From Lachnospiraceae bacterium (lineage in GTDB: Bacteria; Bacillota; Clostridia; Lachnospirales; Lachnospiraceae), in NCBI GenBank assembly GCA_017461775.1, contig JAFTXD010000100.1, positions 59,949-123,948 on the forward strand: a DNA stretch of 64,000 bases, written 5' to 3'. Positions 38,255 through 51,582 of this stretch are shown here, piece by piece. Each line of letters starts with the position of its first letter. Position 1 is the stretch's first letter. Both the position numbers and the translations under genes were made by a program. Below the pieces are notes generated by a model that ran no database searches, was not told the origin of the DNA, and saw only the letters and a program-made list of their open reading frames with translations.

Positions 38255-40138
38255 TTACGCCATCTTCTCCGTATAATACTGTGCCTGTGCATGCCACAGC
38301 TCATAGTATTTTCCGCTCTCCTCCGTCACCAGCACTTCATGGCTTCCCTGCTGGATAACCGTACCTTCATGAAATACTGCAATTTCATCACAGAACTTGC
38401 AGGAGGACAATCTGTGGCTAATATAAATCGCCGTCTTATCCCCAACAATATCGTTAAACTTACTGTAAATCTCCGCCTCCGCGATAGGATCCAGTGCCGC
38501 TGTCGGTTCATCCAAAATGATGAAAGGCGCATCCTTGTACAAGGCTCTGGCGATGGCAATTTTCTGGGCTTCCCCTCCGGAAACCTCCACACCTTCTTTG
38601 TCAATATCCTTGTACAAATAAGTTTCCAGTCCATGAGGCATATCCTCCAGACGCTCATCAAAGCCCGCATCCTTCAGGCATTTACGAACTCTTTCTTCAT
38701 CATACTCGGTACTGCCAGCAATATTCTCCCCAAGGGGCAGCGCCAGCAGCTGAAAATCCTGAAATACCACGGAGAATACATCAATGTAATCCTCATATCT
38801 GTACTTCCTTATGTCGATACCATTCAGCAGTATTTCCCCTTCCGTAGGGTCGTAGAGACGGCACAGAAGCTTGATAAAGGTGGTCTTACCACTGCCGTTC
38901 ATGCCAACCACCGCCAGACGGCTTCCAATCTTGAATTTCATATTCACATGGCGCAGCGCCCAGATATCCGTTCCCGGATATTTAAAGGACACATCCTTAA
39001 ACTCCACCTCGTACTGTCTGTCGGAACGTTTTTCCGTGGTGAGGCTGCCTTGGTACATTTTGTTTGGTATATCCAGCAGTTCAAAGGTTTTTCTCAAAAA
39101 TGGTACGTTGCAATGCATATCTCCCACAATGCTAAGAAGCTCAGAAATCCCCGATGCCATATTGGTAATCGCACCGATATACTGGGTCACCGAGCCCACC
39201 CCATAGGCTCCCGCCCATGCCTTTACACATACAAAAATGTAGCATATAGCGATTACCAGTTGATTTAAACTGGCCTTCGCCACCTCACAAATACCCATTG
39301 GACCTGCGGCACATTTTGCCATTTTCCCCCCCGGGGTCCACATATTCAATTTGGTAAGATAAGCATCACAAACCTGCTGCTGATTATAGATTCGTATGTC
39401 TGCAGCCCTGTTTTTCTCCTGGGTTAAATATCCAAAAAAAGCAAACATCCGATTTCCGAACTTCGCATCCTCTGCCATACTTGCCCAGATTCCATTTGTG
39501 ATTACTCCAAACAGCGGAGACAACACACTCATACCAATCAGCAAAACGATAATAAATACTGCAAATAAGGGATGATTCAAAAACACCAATTCTTCGTTAT
39601 ATTCCGGTACCTTTGAGGTAAATAAGGATACCGTAAGGGCAATGGCTCCCACAATGCGGCATACCGCATTTACAATAGTTTCAAAATACCAGTTCATTTT
39701 CCCAATGCCCCAGCCACTCCAGCGCTGATTTTGCTGTATCTGAAAACGCAAATCATGGGTTTTCTGGTCATCCATATCTTCAAAATCCATATACAGCATT
39801 TTATCCGTATATATTTTTTCTCGATGGAACCATGACGAGCCATCCTTCGCCGCCTTACTTCTCTCCAAAACCGCATTCGCCAGTGCCAGTATACCATTTA
39901 CAACTACTGTGATTACCACCAGCCTCCACAATACCTCCGGGCTGCGACTTCCTGCCAGTTCATTGATAATCTGTGCCGATAGCCAGATATTAATATATGG
40001 TGCAACTGCCTTACAAATACTTTTCAAGGCGATGATTTTATAAAAATCTCCATGATAACGATTCATAATCTGAAAAGAGCGCCATGTGAGACTTAACGTT
40101 TCCCGGATACTCGCTCTATCTTGCTTCTCCTTCTTCAT
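38255..40138 (-). CDS. ABC exporter, fused permease-ATPase (subunit 2)
   Basis: A 627-residue type IV half-transporter: six membrane segments in the first 330 residues, then an ATPase domain with Walker A 'AVVGMNGSGKTTFIKLLC', Q-loop 'VFSVVFQDFQLL', signature 'VSGGEAQKIAIARALYKD' and Walker B 'FIILDEPTAALDPIAE', with the H-loop 'ISHRLSS'. The ATG at 40138 follows GGAGG by 9 bases and overlaps the upstream ABC gene by 23 bases. The pair is likely a heterodimer. Located under a LytTR/GHKL pair and divergent from a putative peptide-modification locus, it may export a peptide or give self-protection. Confidence 0.94.
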   Translation of the reverse strand: MKKEKQDRASIRETLSLTWRSFQIMNRYHGDFYKIIALKSICKAVAPYINIWLSAQIINELAGSRSPEVLWRLVVITVVVNGILALANAVLERSKAAKDGSSWFHREKIYTDKMLYMDFEDMDDQKTHDLRFQIQQNQRWSGWGIGKMNWYFETIVNAVCRIVGAIALTVSLFTSKVPEYNEELVFLNHPLFAVFIIVLLIGMSVLSPLFGVITNGIWASMAEDAKFGNRMFAFFGYLTQEKNRAADIRIYNQQQVCDAYLTKLNMWTPGGKMAKCAAGPMGICEVAKASLNQLVIAICYIFVCVKAWAGAYGVGSVTQYIGAITNMASGISELLSIVGDMHCNVPFLRKTFELLDIPNKMYQGSLTTEKRSDRQYEVEFKDVSFKYPGTDIWALRHVNMKFKIGSRLAVVGMNGSGKTTFIKLLCRLYDPTEGEILLNGIDIRKYRYEDYIDVFSVVFQDFQLLALPLGENIAGSTEYDEERVRKCLKDAGFDERLEDMPHGLETYLYKDIDKEGVEVSGGEAQKIAIARALYKDAPFIILDEPTAALDPIAEAEIYSKFNDIVGDKTAIYISHRLSSCKFCDEIAVFHEGTVIQQGSHEVLVTEESGKYYELWHAQAQYYTEKMA

Positions 40139-41969
40139 TCTGTACGCCCTCCTCTCTGTAATATTTACTCTGTACTTCAAATAATTCTGCATACTTCCCA
40201 CCGGTGGCCATCAAGCTCTCATGGGTTCCCTCCTGCACAATTCTTCCAGCCTCTAAAAACAGAATCCTGTCACAAAATCTTGTGGAAGCAAGGCGATGAG
40301 AAATAAATACAGAGGACTTGCCCTTCGTCATCTCATTGTATTTCATGTAAATGTCATTTTCTGCAATGGGGTCGAGAGCAGCTGTGGGTTCATCTAACAT
40401 TATCATTGGTGCGCCCTTATACAAGGCTCTTGCAAGCATCAGACGCTGCACTTCACCACCGGAGAATTCCACGCCATCCTCATACACCTGCTTGCCCAGA
40501 TGAGTGTCCAGCTTCTGGGGAAGCAATTGTATCTTTTCCCAAAGTCCCGCCTTTTTCACACATTCTTCCACACGCTCTTTATCAATATCCGTAGGCGATT
40601 GTGCGATATTTTCCGCCAGTGTTACCGACAGTAAGGAGAACTGCTGGAATACCCCCGAAAACAGCTGATAGTAGTCTCTGCGGTTATATTTGCGGATATC
40701 AACACCGTTCAGCAGTACTTTACCCTCCGTGGGGTCATAAAAACCTATCAGCAGCTTTACCAGTGTAGTTTTTCCTGCACCGTTTAAGCCCACAATTGCC
40801 ATATTTTCTCCCGGATGAAGTGTCAGATTCATATGGGAAATGGTATCCTTTTCCGCTCCCGGGTAGCGGAAGGATACGTTTTTCAATTGTATTTCATAAT
40901 CCATGCCTGTGACCACCTGCAATGGCTCACCTTCTTCAAACAAAAAGGGTTCCGGCAACTCTACAAACTCTCTCACTTGTGAGATATCTACACTATGCTT
41001 ATGCAATGTATAAATACTGTTTAAGATTCCCAGAATCCAAGTGGTAAATCCGGAAATTGCAGAGAAATACAGTACAAATTCTGCCGCAGACAATCCACCA
41101 TTTATTGCCTTGGTAACTAAATAAATATAAGCAATGGCATTCCGAAGAATGGACAGAACCACATCTGCTCCTGATGCAACCATATAAACCATTTCTCTGC
41201 GCTGAAGGTATGCCTGATAACATCTCATAGCACTGCTATAAACACTCTCCAGCCAATCTCTCATGCCAAAGATACGGATATCCTTCGCAAGCTTTGCATC
41301 CTCTGCCCGCTTCCTTACATACATCAGCCGGTTTATGTACTTCTCTTCCTCCTCCTTATGACGATATCCCCACTCCGTAACGTAATGATTCACCATATAG
41401 CTGATGACTGCAGTCGCAATAACTACTAACAGCAAATACCCATCCAGTGCAGATAAAATCATCAAATACGTGAGAAATCCCAATACATTTAACAAAATCT
41501 CCTGAAGGGTCTTCCAAACCGCTTCTGTTGCAGCTATATTACTTTCCAAAGCACGATTTGCCTTTTCCAGCTTTTGCCTTACCTCCGCAGACTCTGTATT
41601 GGGATAGGACGTGATTGCCATCTTTCGTTGTAAATCTCGCAAAATATCCAGACGCACTTCGATTCTACCAAAGTTTGTAATCCCATTCACATATACCTTG
41701 CCAGCAGCAAAAAACATGGAAAGCACGTAAAAACCTATAATGGTAAGTAATAACTCTTTAAGCGCCTTTGCAATTTCTACTTTCTGCAAAACGGCCGGTA
41801 CCAGAAACAACTCTACCACATTACCCGCCAAACCGATTATTACCAGCAAAAGGCACAGCCAAATAACGCTTTTCCTAACCTTCCACGCCTTTCCTAACAT
41901 ATACATGGTATTCTGCCACATATTGTATTTGGGTCGTTCTTTTTCTTGTTTTTTCTCTTTTACTGTCAT
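40116..41969 (-). CDS. ABC exporter, fused permease-ATPase (subunit 1)
   Basis: A 617-residue half-transporter. The first 330 residues hold six membrane segments. The ATPase has Walker A 'AIVGLNGAGKTTLVKLLI', Q-loop 'LFSGVFQQFSLL', a slightly altered signature 'FSGGEVQRLMLARALYKG', Walker B 'MIMLDEPTAALDPIAE', and 'ISHRLAS'. Both subunits keep the catalytic Glu after Walker B, so both nucleotide sites could be active. AGGGAG is about 9 bases before the ATG. The terminator-like hairpin just upstream suggests that expression from the regulator genes is attenuated. Confidence 0.94.
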   Translation of the reverse strand: MTVKEKKQEKERPKYNMWQNTMYMLGKAWKVRKSVIWLCLLLVIIGLAGNVVELFLVPAVLQKVEIAKALKELLLTIIGFYVLSMFFAAGKVYVNGITNFGRIEVRLDILRDLQRKMAITSYPNTESAEVRQKLEKANRALESNIAATEAVWKTLQEILLNVLGFLTYLMILSALDGYLLLVVIATAVISYMVNHYVTEWGYRHKEEEEKYINRLMYVRKRAEDAKLAKDIRIFGMRDWLESVYSSAMRCYQAYLQRREMVYMVASGADVVLSILRNAIAYIYLVTKAINGGLSAAEFVLYFSAISGFTTWILGILNSIYTLHKHSVDISQVREFVELPEPFLFEEGEPLQVVTGMDYEIQLKNVSFRYPGAEKDTISHMNLTLHPGENMAIVGLNGAGKTTLVKLLIGFYDPTEGKVLLNGVDIRKYNRRDYYQLFSGVFQQFSLLSVTLAENIAQSPTDIDKERVEECVKKAGLWEKIQLLPQKLDTHLGKQVYEDGVEFSGGEVQRLMLARALYKGAPMIMLDEPTAALDPIAENDIYMKYNEMTKGKSSVFISHRLASTRFCDRILFLEAGRIVQEGTHESLMATGGKYAELFEVQSKYYREEGVQNEEGEAR

Positions 41970-42002
41970 TATTCATATCTCCCTTCTGCCATCCTACCAT
42001 AG

Positions 42003-42035
42003 CAAAAAGAAGTCCCCAAAATCGACTTTGGGGAC
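42003..42035 (-). terminator. Terminator/attenuator between the GHKL kinase and ABC genes
   Basis: On the minus strand GTCCCCAAA pairs with TTTGGGGAC around a 6-base loop, followed by TTCTTTTT. No promoter is evident between it and the ABC genes, so partial read-through is likely. Confidence 0.75.
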
Positions 42036-42065
42036 GAATTGTCAAAATCAGGTGACCAACTGCAC

Positions 42066-42728
42066 TCACACCTGAGGTATTAATATTTCCGTAGTAAAGG
42101 CACCATCCTCACTATTTCGGCTAAGGTACCCATCCAATCTCTCAATGATATTATCAATGCGCACCAGTCCGAAGCCATGTCCCTCTCCCTTGGTAGAGCC
42201 AAAGATTTTGCCCACCTTCACCAGCTTCTTTCCTGCGGTGAAATTGGTGAAGGATATGTAGAGTTGTGTACCCTTCATATCCATGTACACGCGAATCATG
42301 CGCTTCTCCTTGGGGAGCTCTAAGCTGGCCTCCATAGCATTGTCAAAGAGGTTTCCGATGATACAGCATAAATCCAGCTCCGACATTTTCAGCTCCACCG
42401 GAATGTGGGCATCCACCTGCACCGCAATATCCCGGGACTGTGCCAAGGATATTTTGCTGTTCAATATGGCATCCGCCATACGATTGCCGGTCTTTATCAC
42501 CGTATCCACCGTATTCAAATCCGTATCCAACTCATCCAGATAAGCCTTGATGCCATCCATATCTCCATTCACTGCCAGCACCTTCATCATCTGGATATGA
42601 TTGCGGTAATCGTGCCGCCAGCCGCGAATCTGGCGGTACATATTATCCACTTCCTGATAGTGGGTCTCTATCAGCTCCCGCTGGTATGCGGCAATTCTTT
42701 TATCTATCTGTTTTGAAAAAAGTCCCAT
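42066..42728 (-). CDS. Soluble GHKL-domain histidine kinase
   Basis: A 220-residue kinase of the AgrC-like GHKL group without any transmembrane sensor domain. A short coiled region is followed by the phospho-acceptor motif 'GWRHDYRNHIQMM' (His39). The ATPase N-box is 'CCIIGNLFDNAMEASLEL' near 118-135, and the G-box is 'STKGEGHGFGLVRIDNIIER'. Because it cannot sense outside peptides by itself, it may respond to a membrane partner such as the ABC exporter. The adjacent LytTR regulator is 9 bases upstream and is the presumed target. Confidence 0.92.
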   Translation of the reverse strand: MGLFSKQIDKRIAAYQRELIETHYQEVDNMYRQIRGWRHDYRNHIQMMKVLAVNGDMDGIKAYLDELDTDLNTVDTVIKTGNRMADAILNSKISLAQSRDIAVQVDAHIPVELKMSELDLCCIIGNLFDNAMEASLELPKEKRMIRVYMDMKGTQLYISFTNFTAGKKLVKVGKIFGSTKGEGHGFGLVRIDNIIERLDGYLSRNSEDGAFTTEILIPQV

Positions 42729-42737
42729 AATGACTCC

Positions 42738-43436
42738 TTATGTATACTTAATTATGGCTCTGTTTAACTGCTCATAACACCCTCTGGGCAGGGGAAGCAC
42801 CGCGCCGTCCGCCAGATACACCTCCGACCTGGTGACTCTGCGGATATGCTTTAGATTTAAAATCATACCACGCCCCACCCGGCAAAAGGACTCGTCCAGC
42901 TCCTCTTCAAACTCCTTCAAAGTACGCTTCACCGTATAATCCTCTTTTCCATGGACCGTCACATAATTCTTCTGCACCTCCAGATACCCAATCTGGTAAA
43001 AGGGAATCCGCACCATTTCCCCAGACAGCATCAGATTCAGGCACCTCTCATTCTGCATCTGCTTTTCCAGTGCCTTATCCAGCACGACATGCAGCTTTTC
43101 TGCATTTACCGGCTTCACCAGATAATGCAGTGCCGCCACCTCATAGCCCTCCGCAATGTATTCCGAATAACCGGTAATGAACACAATCTGCACCGTCTCG
43201 TTGTCTCTGCGCACCTTCTTTGCCATGGTGACGCCATCCATGGCTCCCATCTCAATGTCCAGAAGAAGAACATCATAGGACTTATCCTCCTCATAATGGA
43301 ACAAAAAGCTTTCTGCGGAAGGAAACACCTTGGTATCCACCGTTACCTGCCGCTCCTGCGCCCAATGATTTATAATATCCTGTACAAAATCTGCATCTGC
43401 TTTGCTGTCATCACAGATAGCTATCCGATATGCCAT
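42738..43436 (-). CDS. LytTR family response regulator
   Basis: A 232-residue AgrA/LytR-type regulator. The receiver domain (1-120) has acidic 'AICDDSKAD', phospho-acceptor Asp60 in 'DVLLLDIEMG' and Lys108 in 'YLVKPVNAEKL'. The LytTR DNA-binding domain (about 135-230) has 'QIGYLEVQKNYVTVHGKED' and 'FCRVGRGMILNLKHIRRVTR'. LytTR proteins bind pairs of direct repeats; a candidate pair lies just upstream at 43478-43507. It is first in the operon with the GHKL kinase and two ABC genes and is divergent from the kinase-substrate-exporter operon. Confidence 0.95.
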   Translation of the reverse strand: MAYRIAICDDSKADADFVQDIINHWAQERQVTVDTKVFPSAESFLFHYEEDKSYDVLLLDIEMGAMDGVTMAKKVRRDNETVQIVFITGYSEYIAEGYEVAALHYLVKPVNAEKLHVVLDKALEKQMQNERCLNLMLSGEMVRIPFYQIGYLEVQKNYVTVHGKEDYTVKRTLKEFEEELDESFCRVGRGMILNLKHIRRVTRSEVYLADGAVLPLPRGCYEQLNRAIIKYT

Positions 43437-43460
43437 AGCTTCACCTCCATGCCGGATTTT

Positions 43461-43469
43461 ATTATACCA
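43461..43469 (-). promoter_or_regulatory. Extended -10 promoter of the LytTR-GHKL-ABC operon
   Basis: TGGTATAAT on the minus strand: perfect -10 with TGn extension, 25 bases before the LytTR start codon. Confidence 0.6.
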
Positions 43470-43477
43470 AAATATCG

Positions 43478-43507
43478 TAGGAATTCCATTCTTTTCTTAG
43501 GCACCCC
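43478..43507. promoter_or_regulatory. Direct repeats between divergent promoters (candidate LytTR site)
   Basis: TAGGAATTCC at 43478 and TAGGCACCCC at 43498 are spaced 20 bases apart, two helical turns, and directly abut the -35 of the plus-strand promoter. LytTR activators bind two ~9-base direct repeats about 21 bases apart next to the -35. The base match to known LytTR sites is weak. Confidence 0.35.
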
Positions 43508-43536
43508 TTGCCCCCTTCTTCGGAAAAAAGTATAAT
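43508..43536 (+). promoter_or_regulatory. Promoter of the PqqD-HprK kinase operon
   Basis: TTGCCC, 17 bases, TATAAT: perfect -10 and a four-of-six -35, 38 bases before the ATG. Confidence 0.6.
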
Positions 43537-43573
43537 AAATCCAAAGCAATACAACCTTATGGAGTCGCATTAT

Positions 43574-44737
43574 ATGAAACGTAACCCTTATTATCAATTA
43601 CGATATTTTGCAAATGTGCCCTATCTGGTGACTTTCGGGCAGGGACATGCAGATTTTCTGCATGATTTACAATTAAATGACACCGGCGTATTTCTATGGG
43701 AACACTTGGAGGAGGTTGCATCTCCTGAGCAGCTGGCGGAGCTTTGTCTGGCGCATTTTCAGTGTTCCCAGGAGCAGCAGGCTACTATGGAAAGTGTTGT
43801 AGAGGATTTTGTGGGAGGACTTCTTTCCAGAGGCATCCTTCTTGCAGATGCCCGGGAGCCCTCCTGCCCCTATGGCAAACGAATCTTGGAAATCGCCGGG
43901 CTCTCCTGCTGCGTGCACGCACCTGCGAACCTGTTTTCTCCGGAAATGCTTGCCTTTGAAGTAGCGGATAGCAATGTTACAAATACTCCTGTACAAAATA
44001 TTTATACTGTTACAGAATCTCCCTCATTTACGGAAAACGGACAGGTTCTTGTCCGAACTGCGCAGCTGACCATTCTGGAAAATGAGAATAAATATATGCT
44101 TTTTTTCCCTTCTTTTTCCAAGGTGAGGGAAGCACACATCCGCAAGGATGGTTCTACTGCCTCCATATACTGTGCCGCAGACGTATCTGAAGTTGATACC
44201 GGGGAATTTTCCTATGCAGTGCGCATGCTTTTTTTCTATTTTGCATTACAGCATCGGGTAGTAGCTCTGCACAGTGCTTCTATTCTTTACAACAACAGGC
44301 TGTGGCTCTTTTCCGCCCCTTCCGGTACCGGAAAATCCACTCATACAAATCTGTGGAAGGAATTGTTTCAGACACCGATCATCAATGGTGATATCAATCT
44401 AATCACCCTTCAGCATGGGCAACCCACCGTCTGTGGGAATCCCTGGCACGGAACCTCCGGCATTTTCGACACTCGGGATTACCCTCTGGGCGGTGTTATC
44501 TTATTAAAGCAAGGATCCCAAAACATAGTTACGAACTTAACCAAAGATCAAAAAGAACTATTTCTTCTCCACCGCTGCATCACCCCTACCTGGACCTCAG
44601 CGCTGCTGGACAAAAACCATGACATTATAAAAAAAATTTGTCCACATATACATGTAACGACTCTGACCTGTACTCAAAATACCTCTGCCGTCCATTGCTG
44701 CAAGGAGGCAATAGACCAGTGTTCGATGCAGAAATAA
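43574..44737 (+). CDS. PqqD-like domain fused to HprK-like kinase
   Basis: A 387-residue protein. Residues 1-95 look like a PqqD/RRE leader-peptide recognition domain ('LNDTGVFLWEHLEEVASPEQ', 'VVEDFVGGLLSRGIL'). Residues 225-385 resemble the HprK/PEPCK-like kinases of lasso-peptide loci: 'VVALHSASILYNNRLWLFSA', P-loop APSGTGKST at 248-256, Asp273 in 'IINGDINLI', and 'CGNPWHGTSGI'. Such kinases phosphorylate a Ser/Thr on a peptide or HPr. The ATG at 43574 has GGAG 9 bases upstream; the frame is open 22 codons further. It is followed by a small Cys-rich secreted-looking protein and an ABC exporter, so it is probably the modifying enzyme. No cyclase or protease genes are nearby. Confidence 0.88.
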   Translation: MKRNPYYQLRYFANVPYLVTFGQGHADFLHDLQLNDTGVFLWEHLEEVASPEQLAELCLAHFQCSQEQQATMESVVEDFVGGLLSRGILLADAREPSCPYGKRILEIAGLSCCVHAPANLFSPEMLAFEVADSNVTNTPVQNIYTVTESPSFTENGQVLVRTAQLTILENENKYMLFFPSFSKVREAHIRKDGSTASIYCAADVSEVDTGEFSYAVRMLFFYFALQHRVVALHSASILYNNRLWLFSAPSGTGKSTHTNLWKELFQTPIINGDINLITLQHGQPTVCGNPWHGTSGIFDTRDYPLGGVILLKQGSQNIVTNLTKDQKELFLLHRCITPTWTSALLDKNHDIIKKICPHIHVTTLTCTQNTSAVHCCKEAIDQCSMQK

Positions 44738-44764
44738 CATTTTTGTTAGATTATGGAGATTTTC

Positions 44765-44793
44765 TTGACGTTTTTCATAAAGGAGGATAAACT
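44765..44793 (+). promoter_or_regulatory. Promoter of the putative substrate protein
   Basis: TTGACG, 17 bases, TAAACT: five of six and four of six matches, 55 bases before the ATG. It would let the substrate be made separately from the kinase. Confidence 0.5.
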
Positions 44794-44848
44794 GCAAGAT
44801 GTGAGAATGTATTAAGAAGAAGTATTTTGTCTTATGAGGAGGACTCTT

Positions 44849-45343
44849 ATGAAAGAATTTGTAACACCGACTTTAATAGACCTTGATATAAATGAAACCG
44901 CAGAAGGCATGTATGCAGGAAGCGGTTCTCATAATGATGACCCCACCGATGTTGTGATACCTTCCCCTGAACCGGGCGATAGCTGTTGGGTGAACTGGAA
45001 ATGTACTTGGACCGGTCACAATAATGGAAGTCACTCTGTGTGTAATGTAACCGCAAACCATTGTGGAGACCACAGCGGCAATACCCTTGTTATGAACTTC
45101 CTTACCAATTTCCCGATAAAAGAAATAAAGGATTGTGAATTTCCGGTTTCCAATGTGGGCTTATACACCTTTACCATTACTCGTACTAATTTCTTTAACC
45201 CCACAGAAAACATCGGCTTTAACTTCCAGATCGTTTCTTCAGAAACCTTCTATGATGCCTCAGGCAATCCTTATCATGGTGCCATCGGCGAAAATAATGC
45301 AGCGTCTTACTATTGCAAGGTAGTAAGCCATTACTGTAGTTAA
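44849..45343 (+). CDS. Putative leader-bearing substrate protein of the kinase/exporter system
   Basis: A 164-residue protein without a Sec signal. The N-terminus 'MKEFVTPTLIDLDINETAEG' followed by 'MYAGSG' is like the short leaders of Firmicute modified peptides (charged, Pro, alternating hydrophobics, then a small-residue Gly end). The rest is polar, with seven Cys, many Ser/Thr/Asn, and a likely beta-rich core ('NVGLYTFTITRTNFF', 'ENIGFNFQIVSSETFYDASG'). GAGGAGG is 6 bases before the ATG. It is long for a RiPP precursor. Kinase upstream and exporter downstream make it the likely cargo. Family not recognised. Confidence 0.75.
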   Translation: MKEFVTPTLIDLDINETAEGMYAGSGSHNDDPTDVVIPSPEPGDSCWVNWKCTWTGHNNGSHSVCNVTANHCGDHSGNTLVMNFLTNFPIKEIKDCEFPVSNVGLYTFTITRTNFFNPTENIGFNFQIVSSETFYDASGNPYHGAIGENNAASYYCKVVSHYCS

Positions 45344-45365
45344 TTCTATACAAAAAGATATTTCA

Positions 45366-45394
45366 AAGCATCACTTTCAAAGTGGTGCTTTTTT
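45366..45394 (+). terminator. Attenuator between substrate and exporter
   Basis: AAGCATCACTTT pairs with AAAGTGGTGCTT (one G-U) with a tight loop, followed by TTTT directly before the AGGAG site of the exporter. Partial termination would give more substrate than exporter, as is common for exported peptides. Confidence 0.8.
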
Positions 45395-45406
45395 AGGAGT
45401 ATACTT

Positions 45407-47188
45407 ATGTTTTCTCGCTTAAAACACTACATTCGCCGGATTAAATCCGGACGGCTCACAGAACTCTTTTCCCAGCTGGCATGGATTTACCAATATGCCA
45501 GGGAACATATCTGGTATGTAATCATTTACACCCTCCTGGGGTTATCCGGTACTGTCATATCTCTGATTAGTGGACTGGTATCCAGAGATTTGATTGATAT
45601 CATTACGGGACACGATTCCAGCGAATTGATACGTACCTTTGTCATGATGATTGCCATTGCTCTGACCAGCAGCGTCATCAGCCAGATTTCCAGCTATCTG
45701 TCCACAAAAATCAGCATGAAGATCGACAATCATATCAAATCCCGGGTTTTTGACGATATCCTTATAACCGATTGGGAATCTTTAACCCGATATCACTCCG
45801 GTGATTTGCTTGTACGATGGAGCGGTGACGTGGGAGCCATTTCTTCCGGAATCCTGACCACATTGCCCAACCTGATTATTTACATATTCCGCTTCTTTTC
45901 TGCACTGGCGATGGTGCTATACTATGACGCGTCCTTTGCTGTTTTTGCTTTGGTCAGCATCCCTGTGAGCATCTATACCTCCAGAACCACACTGAAGAAA
46001 ATGCAGAAGGGAAATATGAGCAGTCTGGCCATCAATTCCCAAATGTCTTCCTTTAATCAGGAGACCTTTGCCAACATCCAGACCGTCAAAGCCTTTGACC
46101 TGCTTCCGCTTTACTCCAAAAGACTCCGCATGCTGCAACAACAATATACCGACGTGCGGATGAAATACCAGCGGGTTGCAATAATGAATACTCTCCTTCT
46201 CACGATAGTATCCATGGCAGTTACCTATTCCTCTTACGGTTGGGGAATCTATAAGGTATGGAGCGGACAAATCTCCTATGGTACCATGACCATGTTTTTG
46301 ACCCTCTCCGGCTCCTTGAGTGGCACTGTTGATAATTTAATCAGCTTTATTCCAAGCACCATTTATCTGTGCAACTCAGCCAAACGTCTGATGGGCATCG
46401 TGGACCTCCCCAAAGAGGACTACAGCCAGAAAAAAGAGATTGCCCGGTTCTTTGAAACTCACAAGGATACTGGCGTGGGCCTCAGCATCCGTGACGTGGC
46501 CTACACCTACGCCACCGGTACCGAAGTCTTTGAGCATGCAAGCTTTGATGCACATCCCCACGAGGTGATTGCACTGGTAGGACCTTCCGGTGAAGGCAAG
46601 ACTACTATGCTGCGGGTTCTCTTATCCATTATCCGCCCCAAGGAGGGTGCCGGATATATCTGCGCAGGAGATTCCACCCCGGAAAGCGGCGGTCCCTGCA
46701 TGGATTTGACGGCTTCCGCACGTCAGCTTTTTGCTTATGTGCCACAGGGTAATACCATGTTCTCCGGAACCATCGCAGACAATATGCGTAATGTAAAAGA
46801 GGACGCTACGGATGAGGAAATTATAGAAGCTTTAAAAATGGCATGTGCCTGGGATTTTGTGGAGAGGCTTCCACAAGGAATTGACAGTGAGATTAAGGAG
46901 CGAGGCGGCGGCTTTTCCGAAGGACAGGCCCAGCGCTTATCCATCGCCAGAGCCATCCTTAGGCGCTCACCCATTCTCCTGTTGGACGAAGCCACCTCCG
47001 CTCTTGATATGGCAACAGAGCGCAAGGTTTTACAGAACATTATGGCGGATAAATATCCCCGCACCACCATCGTTACTACCCACAGACCGTCCGTGCTGAA
47101 TATCTGCAAGCGGGTGTACTCCATTGGTAGTAAGCGATGTGTCCTTTTAAGCAAAAAAGAAATTGACGAGCTGATAAATGGCTACTAG
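45407..47188 (+). CDS. ABC exporter of the kinase/substrate locus
   Basis: A 593-residue fused permease-ATPase without a C39 peptidase domain. Six membrane segments precede the ATPase: Walker A 'LVGPSGEGKTTMLRVLL' near 395, Q-loop 'AYVPQGNTMFSGT', an unusual signature 'FSEGQAQRLSIARAILRR' (E in place of G in LSGGQ), Walker B 'ILLLDEATSALDMATE' and 'VTTHRPSV'. From general recall, FSEGQ-type signatures are seen in exporters of lasso-peptide-like loci. Since no protease domain is present, leader removal would need another enzyme. AGGAG is 7 bases before the ATG. Third gene of the divergent plus-strand operon. Confidence 0.93.
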   Translation: MFSRLKHYIRRIKSGRLTELFSQLAWIYQYAREHIWYVIIYTLLGLSGTVISLISGLVSRDLIDIITGHDSSELIRTFVMMIAIALTSSVISQISSYLSTKISMKIDNHIKSRVFDDILITDWESLTRYHSGDLLVRWSGDVGAISSGILTTLPNLIIYIFRFFSALAMVLYYDASFAVFALVSIPVSIYTSRTTLKKMQKGNMSSLAINSQMSSFNQETFANIQTVKAFDLLPLYSKRLRMLQQQYTDVRMKYQRVAIMNTLLLTIVSMAVTYSSYGWGIYKVWSGQISYGTMTMFLTLSGSLSGTVDNLISFIPSTIYLCNSAKRLMGIVDLPKEDYSQKKEIARFFETHKDTGVGLSIRDVAYTYATGTEVFEHASFDAHPHEVIALVGPSGEGKTTMLRVLLSIIRPKEGAGYICAGDSTPESGGPCMDLTASARQLFAYVPQGNTMFSGTIADNMRNVKEDATDEEIIEALKMACAWDFVERLPQGIDSEIKERGGGFSEGQAQRLSIARAILRRSPILLLDEATSALDMATERKVLQNIMADKYPRTTIVTTHRPSVLNICKRVYSIGSKRCVLLSKKEIDELINGY

Positions 47189-47196
47189 TACTACAC

Positions 47197-48048
47197 CTAT
47201 TCATTATTGGCCCGCCGTTTGGTATAGCTGTCACGATAGTCACTGGGCGTAAGTCCGGTGACTTTTTTAAAGGCGTTGGTGAAATTGTGGGGGTCACTGT
47301 AGCCGATATTATAGCCAATCTGGGAAATGGAATGATTGGTCTCGCTGAGCTGTGCCTTGGCACTCTCCATCTTGGTCTGCAAAATAAACTGTTTGATGGA
47401 CACCTTGGACCACTTTTTAAAATAAGTGGTCAGATACTTTTCATTGTACCCAAAATAATCCGCCACATCTGCCACCTTTAAATTGGAGCACACATTCAGC
47501 CGGATATAATCTGCGATGTCGTTGTATAGCTGGCTACTGTTGTCGGAGTTGTCATACTTACGGTAAATGGACGCCTGGGCACTGAGCTCCGCCAGAATCA
47601 CAGAGGTACTGAAATTATTCAAGGAGCGCATACCATAGCGGCGTTCACTATCCTGAAGCTGCTTCATCAGCACCACCATTCGCTCAAAGGACTGCAGTTC
47701 CCCATACACCGGCACTATCAGGGACGTGGCATCCTGAGCCGCTCCCGCATTCTCCACTTCCAAAAGCTCAAATGCCGAAGAGGGATAAAAGTGCAGCCAG
47801 TAAAAGCTACAATCACCGGTTCGATATCCGTGTTGCTTCTGGGTAGGAGGCATTAAAAGATACTCCCCCTTTTTCACCGCATATTCCACTTCATTTTCCG
47901 CAATATACAATACCCCTTCCGTCACCACAAAAAGCTCAAAATCAAAGAGCTGTCTGGTGAGATGCATCCACTCACTTCCCGGTGCAGTGAATCTTCCTGC
48001 AAAGTTGTATTGAAAAGGTAATGCCGAATTGAATTTAATCACTTTCAT
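47197..48048 (-). CDS. AraC family transcriptional regulator
   Basis: A 283-residue regulator with an N-terminal cupin ('QLFDFELFVVTEGVLYIAEN', 'GEYLLMPPTQKQHGYRTG', 'FYWLHFYP') and a C-terminal helix-turn-helix domain ('LKVADVADYFGYNEKYLTTY', 'ISQIGYNIGYSDPHNFTNAF', 'VTGLTPSDYRDSY'). It is divergent from the large GH127 lipoprotein gene and likely regulates it in response to an arabinose-containing glycan, by analogy with sugar-locus AraC proteins. It converges with the ABC exporter gene, only 8 bases apart, without a visible terminator. Confidence 0.93.
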   Translation of the reverse strand: MKVIKFNSALPFQYNFAGRFTAPGSEWMHLTRQLFDFELFVVTEGVLYIAENEVEYAVKKGEYLLMPPTQKQHGYRTGDCSFYWLHFYPSSAFELLEVENAGAAQDATSLIVPVYGELQSFERMVVLMKQLQDSERRYGMRSLNNFSTSVILAELSAQASIYRKYDNSDNSSQLYNDIADYIRLNVCSNLKVADVADYFGYNEKYLTTYFKKWSKVSIKQFILQTKMESAKAQLSETNHSISQIGYNIGYSDPHNFTNAFKKVTGLTPSDYRDSYTKRRANNE

Positions 48049-48204
48049 CTAACAAAATCACACCTTATCTTACCAAAAATAGTCATTAAATACCCATCTA
48101 CCCTGATAATATCCTAAAAATCGTCCTCCGTAAAGCATAAAATTACAACTGAACTTTTCACACTTATTCCAATGTATGAGAATTTACTTTCCGAAGGAAA
48201 AAAC

Positions 48205-48221
48205 GTTATGCTTACCATAAC
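48205..48221. promoter_or_regulatory. Small palindrome upstream of the GH127 gene
   Basis: GTTATG cttac CATAAC, a 6-base perfect dyad 25 bases before the GH127 start codon in the divergent AraC/GH127 spacer. A possible regulator site; no strong promoter hexamers were found in this spacer. Confidence 0.3.
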
Positions 48222-48246
48222 AATATATATGGGGAGGCAATACGCC

Positions 48247-51200
48247 ATGAAAAAGTTACATTTATTATTAGCACTGACTTCTGCTCTGGCACTTACCGCC
48301 TGTGGTGGAAGCCCGGAAGAAGCTCCTGTGGACAAAAGCATGCCTACGGAAGCGCCGGTAGCTACGATAGCGCCCACGCCGGAGCCCACACCCGAGCCGC
48401 CGGTTTACGAACAGTATAAGGTACTGGGCTTATCCTTTGACGGCAATGTGGAGGATTCCTCTGCCACAGGCATCAGCGCTTCTTTGAGCAAGGATGGTGC
48501 TTATGTAGAAGGTGTCAGCGGACAGGCTCTTGCACTGGACGGCTCCACCTACATTGACCTTGGTACGGACACATCCCTCCAGCCGGAGAACCTGACCTTC
48601 ACATCCTGGATTAAGGTGGACGAAAATCTGGCCGGGGAGCATATGATTACCTGGTTTAAGCCCAGCGGAAACTACCAGGGCGAAGGCTGGTATCTTTCCT
48701 GTCTGGACAACAATACACCTTTAAAGCTTTCCGTAGGTAAGGCCGCAGGGCAGCCCATGGAGATGTTTGTTTCCGGCAGCCGCGCGGAGTTCTTCCCGGT
48801 GGGAGAATGGGTGCATATCGCTGTTACCTATGATTCCGCTGTCCACAGCTGCAATATTTATCGTAATGGTGTGGCACAGGATGTGCAGTATATCAACGAA
48901 GCAAAAGAGATTCATGCGGATGAAAACAGCCATAAATACATCGGCTTTAATTCCCCGGGCTACAATGGTGGCTTTGCCAAGATGACTCTGGATGAGCTGG
49001 CAATTTACAATCAGGTGCTTTCCTCCAATGAGGTTATAGAGCTTTATACGGCTTTCGGTGCCGAGTTTGACGGTTCCAAGGTAGTAACCGCAGACTATAA
49101 CAGCCTTGGCATCTCCTTAAAATCCATCAAAAATGACATTACCCTTCCTACCCAGGGTGCCGCAGGAAGCACCATTACCTGGTCTTCCTCGGATGAAAAC
49201 ATACTGAGCCCGGAAGGAAAGGTTACCAGACCTGCCTCCGGCGAAAACGATGCGCAGATTACCTTGACCGCAACCCTTTCCTATGCAGATTTTGTGCAGG
49301 AAAAGAGCTTTGAAATCTGCGTGGAAGCAGAGCCTGCCTTTGGAGATTTACAGGACTTTGCCATGGGTGATGTAACTCTTCTGGATGCTTACGAAACCAA
49401 CGCCTTTGCTCTGGAGGTGGACTATCTGAAGTCTCTGGATGCGGACCGATTGCTTAAGGGCTTCTGTACCATCGCCGGCATCGAAAGCGACGCTGCTCTC
49501 TATGGTGGCTGGGAGAATTCCGCCATCAAAGGACATACCCTGGGTCATTATTTAACCGCTCTGTCACAGGCCTATGCCACCAGTGGTGACAAGGAGCTTT
49601 TAAAGACCACCGGGCACATTGTGGAAGTACTGGCAAAGTGCCAGAATGAGGAAACCGGTTACCTTGCAGCCATCCCGGAAAGTCATTATACCCAGATTGA
49701 AAATGGTAATACCTCCGGTACCTGGGTTCCCTGGTACACCATGCATAAGGTACTAGCGGGACTGATCGATGCCTATGAGCTGACCGGAAACGAGCAGGCT
49801 CTCAACGTGGCATCTTCCTTAGGTGACTGGGTATATTCCAGAACCTCCACCTGGTCAGAAGCAACACAGGCCACCGTCCTCAACGTGGAATACGGCGGAA
49901 TGAACGATTGCTTATACCAGCTTTACAGCCACACCGGCAATGAAAACCATTTATCCGCAGCTCACAGCTTCGATGAGATGGACTTATTTGAATCCCTTTA
50001 CAATGGCGAGGATGTGCTCAACGGCTTACATGCCAACACCACCATCCCCAAGATTGTAGGCGCACTGAACCGCTACATGGTTCTGGGCGAATCTGAAGAA
50101 TACTACTTACAGGTAGCAGAGAATTTCTGGGAAATCGTTGTGAATAACCACACCTATATCACCGGTGGCAACAGTGAGTGGGAGCATTTCGGCGAGGCAA
50201 ACATTCTGGACGCAGAGCGTACCAACTGCAACTGCGAAACCTGTAATACCTACAACATGTTAAAGCTCACCAGAGAGCTGTTTAAGATTACCGGTAACAG
50301 CAAGTATTCCGCATATTACGAGAATACCTTTATCAACGCCATCCTGTCCTCACAGAATCCACGGACGGGTATGACCACCTATTTCCAGCCCATGGCTACC
50401 GGATATTTCAAGGTGTACAGCTCTGAAACCGGACATTTCTGGTGCTGTACCGGCTCCGGTATGGAGAACTTCTCCAAGCTGGGAGACAGTATTTATTACA
50501 AGGATGAAAACAGTATTTATGTAACCCGCTTTACTTCTTCGCAGGTATGCTGGGAAGAAAAAGGACTGACCCTGACACAGGAAACAGATATTCCCTACTC
50601 AGACACTGCCACCTTCACCGTAAAGACAGATGGCAATGAGGTTTCCGCAGATATCGTACTGTATGTACCGGACTGGACCAGCACTGCGCCTACTGTAGCA
50701 GTAAATGGTACTGTGGTGAATACAGAAGTAGTAAACAACTATATCCGCCTTTCCGGTCCTTGGAAGGATGGAGACGTGATTACCTACACCCTCCCTATGG
50801 AAATCGTGGTATACAATCTGCCGGATAACGAAAACGTGGTGGCTTTCAAGTACGGCCCCATCGTCCTTTCCGCAGACCTTGGTACCGAGGATATGGCCAC
50901 CGGAAGCACCGGTGTAAACGTAACCGTTCCCACCCTGTTCATCGATATCAGCGATGTACTTGCCATTACCGATGTAAGCATTGAAGACTGGCTGGCAAAT
51001 ATTAACGATAAGCTGGTGCGCAAGGAAGATACTTTGGAATTTACCTTAACCGGTACGGACAGAGAGCTCACCTTCTCACCTCACTATATGCAGCATACCA
51101 ACAGATACGGTATCTACTTTGAACTGACCGATGCAGATACCGCAGTGATGGAGGATGAATCCGACAAATATGTGGTTATCGACTCCCTGCCGGTTGCCAA

Positions 51201-51582
51201 TGACCAGTACGAATTTTCTCACAACCTGGATGGTGACCTGACCAATACCGGTACCCACAAGGGCTTAAACTACCGTGATGCTGCACCGGGTGGCTATTTC
51301 AGCTATGAATTTGCGGTGGAGGAAGGTGTGACCAATCTCCTCTTTGTAAAATACTTTAGCGGCGACGCCGGAAGAGCCTTCCGCATCACCATCGACGGCG
51401 AAACCTTAGAGGATGAAGTCATCGAGAATATTAACCCGGACGATTTCTACGACTGGTACTATGAAATTCCTACAGAGCTTACAGAAGGCAAGGATACCAT
51501 CACTGTGACCTTTGAGGCAAATGGTACCCACTACGCCGGTGGAATCTTTGATAAGATTGGAATTGCCAAAGAAAAAGAATAG
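48247..51582 (+). CDS. GH127-type multidomain surface lipoprotein (beta-L-arabinofuranosidase-like)
   Basis: A 1111-residue lipoprotein. The signal is 'MKKLHLLLALTSALALTAC' with Cys19 as lipid site, then a Pro/Thr spacer (about 25-52). Domains in order: LamG/concanavalin-like (about 55-265, 'YIDLGTDTSLQPENLTFTSW'), a bacterial Ig-like repeat ('STITWSSSDENILSPEGKVT'), and the GH127/DUF1680 catalytic region (about 365-920). Zinc and nucleophile Cys motifs are visible: 'RTNCNCETCNTYNM' and 'FWCCTGSGMENF', matching the E-x-C and C-C sets of beta-L-arabinofuranosidases. A C-terminal beta domain follows. The GGGGAGG site fixes the start. It acts on the outer cell surface on an arabinose-containing glycan; exact linkage unknown. 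Confidence 0.95.
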   Translation: MKKLHLLLALTSALALTACGGSPEEAPVDKSMPTEAPVATIAPTPEPTPEPPVYEQYKVLGLSFDGNVEDSSATGISASLSKDGAYVEGVSGQALALDGSTYIDLGTDTSLQPENLTFTSWIKVDENLAGEHMITWFKPSGNYQGEGWYLSCLDNNTPLKLSVGKAAGQPMEMFVSGSRAEFFPVGEWVHIAVTYDSAVHSCNIYRNGVAQDVQYINEAKEIHADENSHKYIGFNSPGYNGGFAKMTLDELAIYNQVLSSNEVIELYTAFGAEFDGSKVVTADYNSLGISLKSIKNDITLPTQGAAGSTITWSSSDENILSPEGKVTRPASGENDAQITLTATLSYADFVQEKSFEICVEAEPAFGDLQDFAMGDVTLLDAYETNAFALEVDYLKSLDADRLLKGFCTIAGIESDAALYGGWENSAIKGHTLGHYLTALSQAYATSGDKELLKTTGHIVEVLAKCQNEETGYLAAIPESHYTQIENGNTSGTWVPWYTMHKVLAGLIDAYELTGNEQALNVASSLGDWVYSRTSTWSEATQATVLNVEYGGMNDCLYQLYSHTGNENHLSAAHSFDEMDLFESLYNGEDVLNGLHANTTIPKIVGALNRYMVLGESEEYYLQVAENFWEIVVNNHTYITGGNSEWEHFGEANILDAERTNCNCETCNTYNMLKLTRELFKITGNSKYSAYYENTFINAILSSQNPRTGMTTYFQPMATGYFKVYSSETGHFWCCTGSGMENFSKLGDSIYYKDENSIYVTRFTSSQVCWEEKGLTLTQETDIPYSDTATFTVKTDGNEVSADIVLYVPDWTSTAPTVAVNGTVVNTEVVNNYIRLSGPWKDGDVITYTLPMEIVVYNLPDNENVVAFKYGPIVLSADLGTEDMATGSTGVNVTVPTLFIDISDVLAITDVSIEDWLANINDKLVRKEDTLEFTLTGTDRELTFSPHYMQHTNRYGIYFELTDADTAVMEDESDKYVVIDSLPVANDQYEFSHNLDGDLTNTGTHKGLNYRDAAPGGYFSYEFAVEEGVTNLLFVKYFSGDAGRAFRITIDGETLEDEVIENINPDDFYDWYYEIPTELTEGKDTITVTFEANGTHYAGGIFDKIGIAKEKE

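Follow-up and report, generated by a model that had tools for sequence, protein, structure and literature searches.

Linear Polyphosphorylated Peptides (LPP), described in May 2026 from the lpp cluster of Paenibacillus alginolyticus, are a family of linear phosphorylated ribosomally synthesized and post-translationally modified peptides (RiPPs). According to the sections of that report considered here (PMC13381572), deletion of the kinase leaves only unphosphorylated precursor, phosphorylation is lost in an S3A variant, as many as four phosphates occur, the SipW-like peptidase LppS removes the leader with the help of the RiPP recognition element (RRE), and the clusters are found in capsule loci. 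Here, a three-gene cassette of a gut bacterium, Lachnospiraceae bacterium GCA_017461775.1, is compared with this system. It lies on contig JAFTXD010000100.1 in a stretch of 64,000 nt, the window, whose own genome (G000) is 82% complete. The cassette encodes a protein in which an RRE of the PqqD type is fused to an HprK-like kinase, a leader-bearing protein of 164 amino acids (aa) and an MsbA-type ABC exporter. LPP is the closest known system to this cassette, and the idea of a phosphorylated leader peptide, put forward in a first-pass annotation of this DNA, has that precedent. It is probable (about 0.7) that the window cassette represents a fused and minimal version of the LPP pathway. What the annotation had observed was confirmed and is coherent, and its interpretation was supported in part.

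The two systems share an HprK-like kinase (assigned here by fold), an RRE and an MsbA-like exporter in the cluster, as well as precursors of 35-200 aa with a conserved leader, a variable C-terminus and a Ser in an A-x-S sequence by the leader-core junction. Genes for a peptidase, an NTP_transf_5 protein and a flippase also recur among the fused relatives of the window locus (counts below). However, the RRE is discrete in LPP and fused to the kinase in the window, the window locus has neither a SipW-like peptidase nor an NTP transferase, its leader reads FxxP...EGMY-AGSG instead of YxxPxVLxHQxIxFET-xxS, its core is a predicted folded domain, and the LPP treated in the sections cited belong to Bacilli, whereas the present loci belong to Lachnospiraceae. 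Because four of the features that define LPP (discrete RRE, peptidase, NTP transferase and leader consensus) are absent, the cassette is regarded as LPP-like and not as a member of LPP. An RRE joined to a tailoring enzyme is a typical case according to the introduction of PMC13381572; in the window the partner is an HprK-type kinase. In the available text of that paper 'Clostridia' and 'Lachnospir' do not occur, and those passages with 'fused' that were considered concern laboratory constructs. No description of an RRE-HprK fusion was found in the literature searched; data tables in the supplements of PMC13381572 may hold such loci.

Relatives were surveyed in 299 genomes of the family. The named loci are the best 80 of 351 candidates that passed a contig scan and represent a sample. 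A full-length fusion, defined as one open reading frame (ORF) of at least 350 aa with a match starting at residue 35 or earlier, was present in 67 of the 80, each with a P-loop, and the other 13 are cut, have no RRE half or are long yet fail the rule (L110, L117). At least 4 kb is available on both sides of 46 fused loci. The counts of 67 and 46 take in the 80 loci only; several of 20 further loci are contigs already among the 80 (e.g. L047/L084 and L049/L103). Gene labels in the related loci are blastp labels.

The window fusion protein scored 30.7 bits against Pfam PqqD (PF05402, cut-off 23.4). A profile of the 67 fusions matched the crystallised RRE of TbiB1 (5v1u, E 1.3e-5) and, weakly, those of PbaB1 (9x90, E 0.021), TfuB1 (6jx3, E 0.058) and LppB (9x8z, E 0.097), and the window sequence alone matched neither RRE nor kinase in the PDB. 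These scores and the predicted structure confirm the PqqD fold that had been assigned to the N-terminus in the first-pass annotation. In LppB, D70 forms a hydrogen bond with the leader Tyr (PMC13381572, section 8). The corresponding column, checked against LppB, is position 75 of the fusions, which is Asp in 64/67. The window and L057 have Val there, and L037, placed in another alignment, has Ser. These three have leaders with Phe for Tyr plus two extra residues. Over the 55 rows with a leader, residue 75 and the leader aromatic residue were associated (Fisher test, p 0.006); each direction has a single exception. This co-variation agrees with the D70-Tyr hydrogen bond of LppB.

The second half of the fusion was predicted as an HprK/PEPCK fold with a pLDDT of 94.8, and H233, K254 and D273 were each found in 66/67 rows. 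Its identity as an HprK-like kinase is predicted from the fold, and catalytic activity would be expected by extension. With HPr kinase/phosphorylase (HprK/P) it has in common the fold, the P-loop, the His and one Asp, whereas the N-terminal domain is a different one and no HPr-like partner is present at the window locus. None of the NCBIfam kinase models scored above cut-off for the window fusion.

The leader of the 164-aa protein reads FxxPxL...EGMYAGS, for which the relatives mostly have YxxPxVL...LAEGVYAAS, the wider form of the aromatic end being YxxPx[VLI]. E19, S25 and G26 are invariant in alignments of 20 and 39 rows. The distance from the aromatic residue to the Ser is 19 in 83 of 85 sequences and 21 in two. 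This number and the 87 cores mentioned below exclude identical proteins; the 85 are 88 distinct candidates minus three without the motif, of which two look spurious and one (L129) has a leader with one extra residue. Ser25, which closes an A-[AG]-S sequence in this family, is the predicted phosphosite and would match Ser3 of LPP if cleavage follows Tyr22. Residues 45-164 are predicted to form a CBM2-like core, a weak match, which differs from CBM2 and chitin-binding modules, the identity being 11%. No family scored over cut-off when the substrate protein was compared with Pfam, CBM2 included, nor when 20 substrates were compared with NCBIfam and Pfam (the best matches, at E 0.0046 and 0.045, involved one or two members in each case), and the substrate profile had no PDB match with E below 0.098. 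Interpretation of 'ASGC' as a lipobox was rejected: a Cys follows SG in only 12/87 cores and by eye a hydrophobic segment was not visible. A second, Cys-rich core family (12/87), many members of which have CDSxYMxGxWQAPDYS, bears the same leader (L038:10733-11098 and relatives).

An exporter was labelled in 61 of the 67 fused loci, a leader protein in 54, an S26/SipW-like peptidase in 49, NTP_transf_5 in 32, a flippase in 29 and Stealth in 15; exporter, leader, peptidase and transferase occurred together in 21. For the 46 loci with flanks the figures were 44, 38, 33, 22, 22 and 12, and 13 had all four. In L059 a six-frame scan recovered a leader overlooked by gene calling; it yielded none in L068, L071, L077, L088, L115, L123 and L125. 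The peptidase label is a blastp match to four examples, two of which were tested: one matched Pfam Peptidase_S24 below cut-off and the other nothing. Pfam confirmed NTP_transf_5 in 2/2 examples, and the flippase and Stealth examples matched Polysacc_synt and Stealth_CR2. Hence the homologues largely keep the substrate and exporter genes, and the proposal of an RRE-kinase fusion with a leader-bearing protein and a linked exporter is borne out by the domain, alignment and locus data. The proposal that phosphorylation is the only modification fared differently. With a peptidase in 33/46 and NTP_transf_5 in 22/46 loci it is not a rule for the family; it possibly holds for the window clade, where both genes are absent from the locus.

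Across the 299 genomes, 74 gave some match to the fusion and 19 a match over both halves, the latter by reading of the match rows, where split matches in one open frame were merged, and, for G213, additionally by alignment. The exporter search, which scored four candidates per genome, found an exporter at 53-76% identity in 17 genomes, the next best being 46%. These are exactly the 17 genomes, that of the window included, with a P-loop-intact full-length fusion; the two that complete the 19 are G049 and G023, with the fusions L054 and L056. In 16/17 (the window and 15 loci) the exporter falls within the sequence retrieved around the fusion, and in G135 the two are about 37 kb apart on one contig. 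A 24-position leader profile (E<=1e-4) picked out 18 genomes, i.e. the 17 and G146 (68% complete); the matches that follow, in a further 11 genomes (E 0.0018-0.048), look like chance. As the profile was built from such leaders, its exclusivity weighs more than its sensitivity. Some genomes have leader genes away from the fusion (G034:C75:1892, G022:C55, G029:C51 and G240:C345). In G146 three leader matches (C2, C7 and C31; L145 in part) were seen and no fusion or exporter was found, as would be the case with dispersed leader proteins or with a missing contig for the kinase.

We propose that the RRE half would bind the N-terminal leader of the 164-aa protein, as suggested by the RRE family and by the co-variation of residue 75 with the leader aromatic residue. 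The tethered kinase, by analogy with LPP and the lasso kinases, could then transfer one or more phosphates to Ser25 in the leader-core junction A-x-S-G, and the MsbA-type pump, to judge from its linkage, may export the product with its predicted folded CBM2-like core. Cleavage would occur after Tyr22; a SipW/S26-like peptidase is encoded in most relatives and not at the window locus. A more far-reaching model, speculative and improbable, is that the pathway serves the leader-guided secretion and tagging of small folded carbohydrate-binding surface proteins and does not make a peptide natural product. The junction Ser would be phosphorylated, relatives with NTP_transf_5, flippase and Stealth would extend it with a sugar-phosphate, tying the protein to the capsule by a phosphodiester, and the window clade would be a stripped version that exports a phosphoprotein, its leader being kept or cut by an unlinked peptidase. 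As an LPP variant, the cassette would extend the LPP idea to Lachnospiraceae, including Coprococcus catus, Anaerobutyricum hallii and Fusicatenibacter saccharivorans, which are human-gut commensals. A single enzyme is predicted to join recognition and phosphorylation, its substrates look like folded proteins rather than peptides, and one exact phosphosite, Ser25, is predicted. The cassette in its three-gene form would reveal the parts that the pathway can do without, and the HKGD variant described below raises the question of how far the complete lasso-kinase motif is required.

Several observations weigh against the cassette being a variant of the LPP pathway. The distance from the aromatic residue to the Ser is 19 compared with 18 in LPP, and 21, three longer, in the window clade. 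Leader candidates were picked by a pattern with a fixed E/D/N/Q and a choice of S, G, A or T at the position of the Ser, and some of the leader invariance is accordingly due to selection. The co-variation at residue 75 has exceptions in L111 (Phe leader, Asp in the RRE) and in the second kinase of L127 (Lys, Tyr leader), which may not be the partner of that leader, and since the window, L037 and L057 fall in one clade they are not three independent events. The exporter is missing in 2/46 loci and the leader in 8/46 (7 after the six-frame scan), and the divergent fusions L054 and L056 have no intact P-loop and neither an exporter nor a leader gene in their fetched stretches. Finally, lasso-tailoring kinases need all four residues of a His-Lys-Asp-Asp motif according to the part of PMC9266682 considered, whereas the fusions read H233-K254-G272-D273, with Gly at the first Asp in 66/67 rows. 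This placement was read beside the lasso-type kinases of the own genome (L143), which have H..K..DD and an Hpr_kinase_C match below cut-off, and not from a superposition. Because of the Gly, kinase activity is not assured, and the lineage either works with one Asp or uses ATP for something else.

It could therefore be that the kinase half is no kinase here and acts as an ATP-binding HprK-fold chaperone that passes the leader protein to the pump, or as a phosphorylase that removes phosphate. The lack of an NCBIfam kinase model above cut-off fits this as well, but His233, Lys254 and Asp273 are conserved, and of the five RRE-free related kinases with an S26-like neighbour (L052, L053, L132, L134, L136) four share the GD variant. 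Among all 13 related kinases that lack an attached RRE, GD was read in 12 and DD in one (L134). Moreover, NTP_transf_5, often encoded nearby, acts on phosphorylated Ser in pseudomycoidin (PMC9266682, in the part considered), and we consider the loss of kinase function unlikely. Decay of an LPP locus, in which peptidase and transferase were lost and the other genes are on their way out, seems less likely still. No SipW/S26-like peptidase was present among the ten window neighbours scanned, and with L040 as query (E<=1e-3) no S26-like protein was found in G000 or in G096 (99% complete), searches that had no positive control. NTP_transf_5 (PF14907) was not found at the window locus, its match in G000 lying on contig C47 in a lasso-type cluster. 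FastTree placed the window with L037 and L057 in one clade (support 1.0), nested among the loci, beside four of which three have S26. Yet all three keep an identical three-gene order with the frames open, the window exporter shares 76% identity with that of L037 and 73% with that of L057, and leader and RRE residue 75 changed together. Upstream of the cassette of L057, the closest relative, a 77-aa ORF with a lasso-like leader was noticed (L057:6115-6348 +, MKRWNSPDFVSLDITETAG).

Two further explanations appeal to genes outside the cassette. The adjacent, divergent genes for a LytTR regulator, a GHKL kinase and a heterodimeric ABC exporter were considered as parts of the system, which would then be a regulated bacteriocin or quorum system. 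This is very improbable, as the GHKL label occurred in 0/100 loci, the LytTR label in 2/100 and the two ABC genes in 2/100 and 10/100 (at 25-40% identity). They are not conserved with the fusion and were rejected as parts. The predicted substrate might also be a lasso precursor matured in trans by lasso enzymes encoded elsewhere in the genome, since its leader resembles both the lasso-type leaders of L143 (MKTWNAPEMVELDITETADG) and lasso leaders printed in the part of PMC7533575 considered, and the L143 contig has two Asn_synthase genes. However, the core of about 140 residues with its predicted folded domain lacks an Asp/Glu at positions 7-9 (numbered from Gly20), the locus has its own RRE-kinase and exporter, and no PF13471 lasso protease scored above cut-off in G000 (G096 has one), which makes this explanation very improbable. 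The stated absence of lasso cyclase and B2 protease holds for the ten proteins scanned between 35568 and 51582, and a lasso peptide was rejected on this ground and on the length of the core. The paeninodin-type lasso kinases (PadeK, ThcoK and PsmK) resemble the fusion in that an HprK-like kinase, in a pathway that also has an RRE, acts on a Ser of a precursor carrying a leader; they differ in their motif (HKDD, not HKGD), in their site (the C-terminal Ser, whereas that predicted for the window is at the core start) and in the cyclase and B2 protease, which were not found at the window locus. L143 itself (G000:C47:1-18000) is a lasso-type cluster that encodes three W-leader precursors, a PqqD, an exporter and a 681-aa protein joining the HprK-like part to NTP_transf_5, besides the two Asn_synthase genes.

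Features of the three-gene cassette in the window (positions from the first nucleotide of the window)
Feature	Position	Strand	Basis
RRE (PqqD)-HprK-like kinase fusion gene, 387 aa	43574..44737	+	
PqqD/RRE domain, residues 1-92	43574..43849	+	Pfam PqqD over cut-off; profile of 67 fusions
RRE residue Val75	43796..43798	+	aligned column, compared with LppB D70
HprK/PEPCK-fold kinase domain, residues 100-387	43871..44734	+	predicted fold
P-loop APSGTGKST, residues 248-256	44315..44341	+	conserved site together with His233 and Asp273
Leader-bearing protein (predicted substrate), 164 aa	44849..45343	+	
Predicted leader, residues 1-22 (FxxPxL ... EGMY)	44849..44914	+	cleavage after Tyr22 by analogy with LPP
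Ser25, predicted phosphorylation site	44921..44923	+	A-x-S as in LPP A1-Q2-S3; invariant in alignments
Predicted CBM2-like beta-sandwich core, residues 45-164	44981..45340	+	predicted structure, weak match
Attenuator-like hairpin with U run, between substrate and exporter genes	45365..45394	+	folding energy
MsbA-type ABC exporter, 593 aa	45407..47188	+	

The segment 45350-45405, which contains the hairpin, has a folding energy of -17.4 kcal/mol (z -4.96) and is not among the sites listed by the consensus scan. Neither promoter-like sites (12 found, mean 10.0 in shuffles) nor terminator-like sites (3 found, mean 4.8) were above chance. A tblastn search of plasmids gave two weak kinase matches. 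One of them (L148, NZ_CP146964 178000-196000, plasmid pNP243 of Butyrivibrio fibrisolvens) belongs to a discrete LPP-type cluster with an S24/S26 peptidase, PqqD, an HprK-like 'hypothetical protein', ABC genes and nucleotidyltransferases, beside pssD/pssE. The divergent genes for the LytTR regulator, the soluble GHKL kinase and two half-size ABC exporters (38255-43436, minus strand) look like a separate unit. On the other side of the cassette an AraC regulator is encoded at 47197-48048 on the minus strand, and beside it a GH127 beta-L-arabinofuranosidase with LamG-like, aBig_2 and DUF6805 domains at 48172-51582 on the plus strand.

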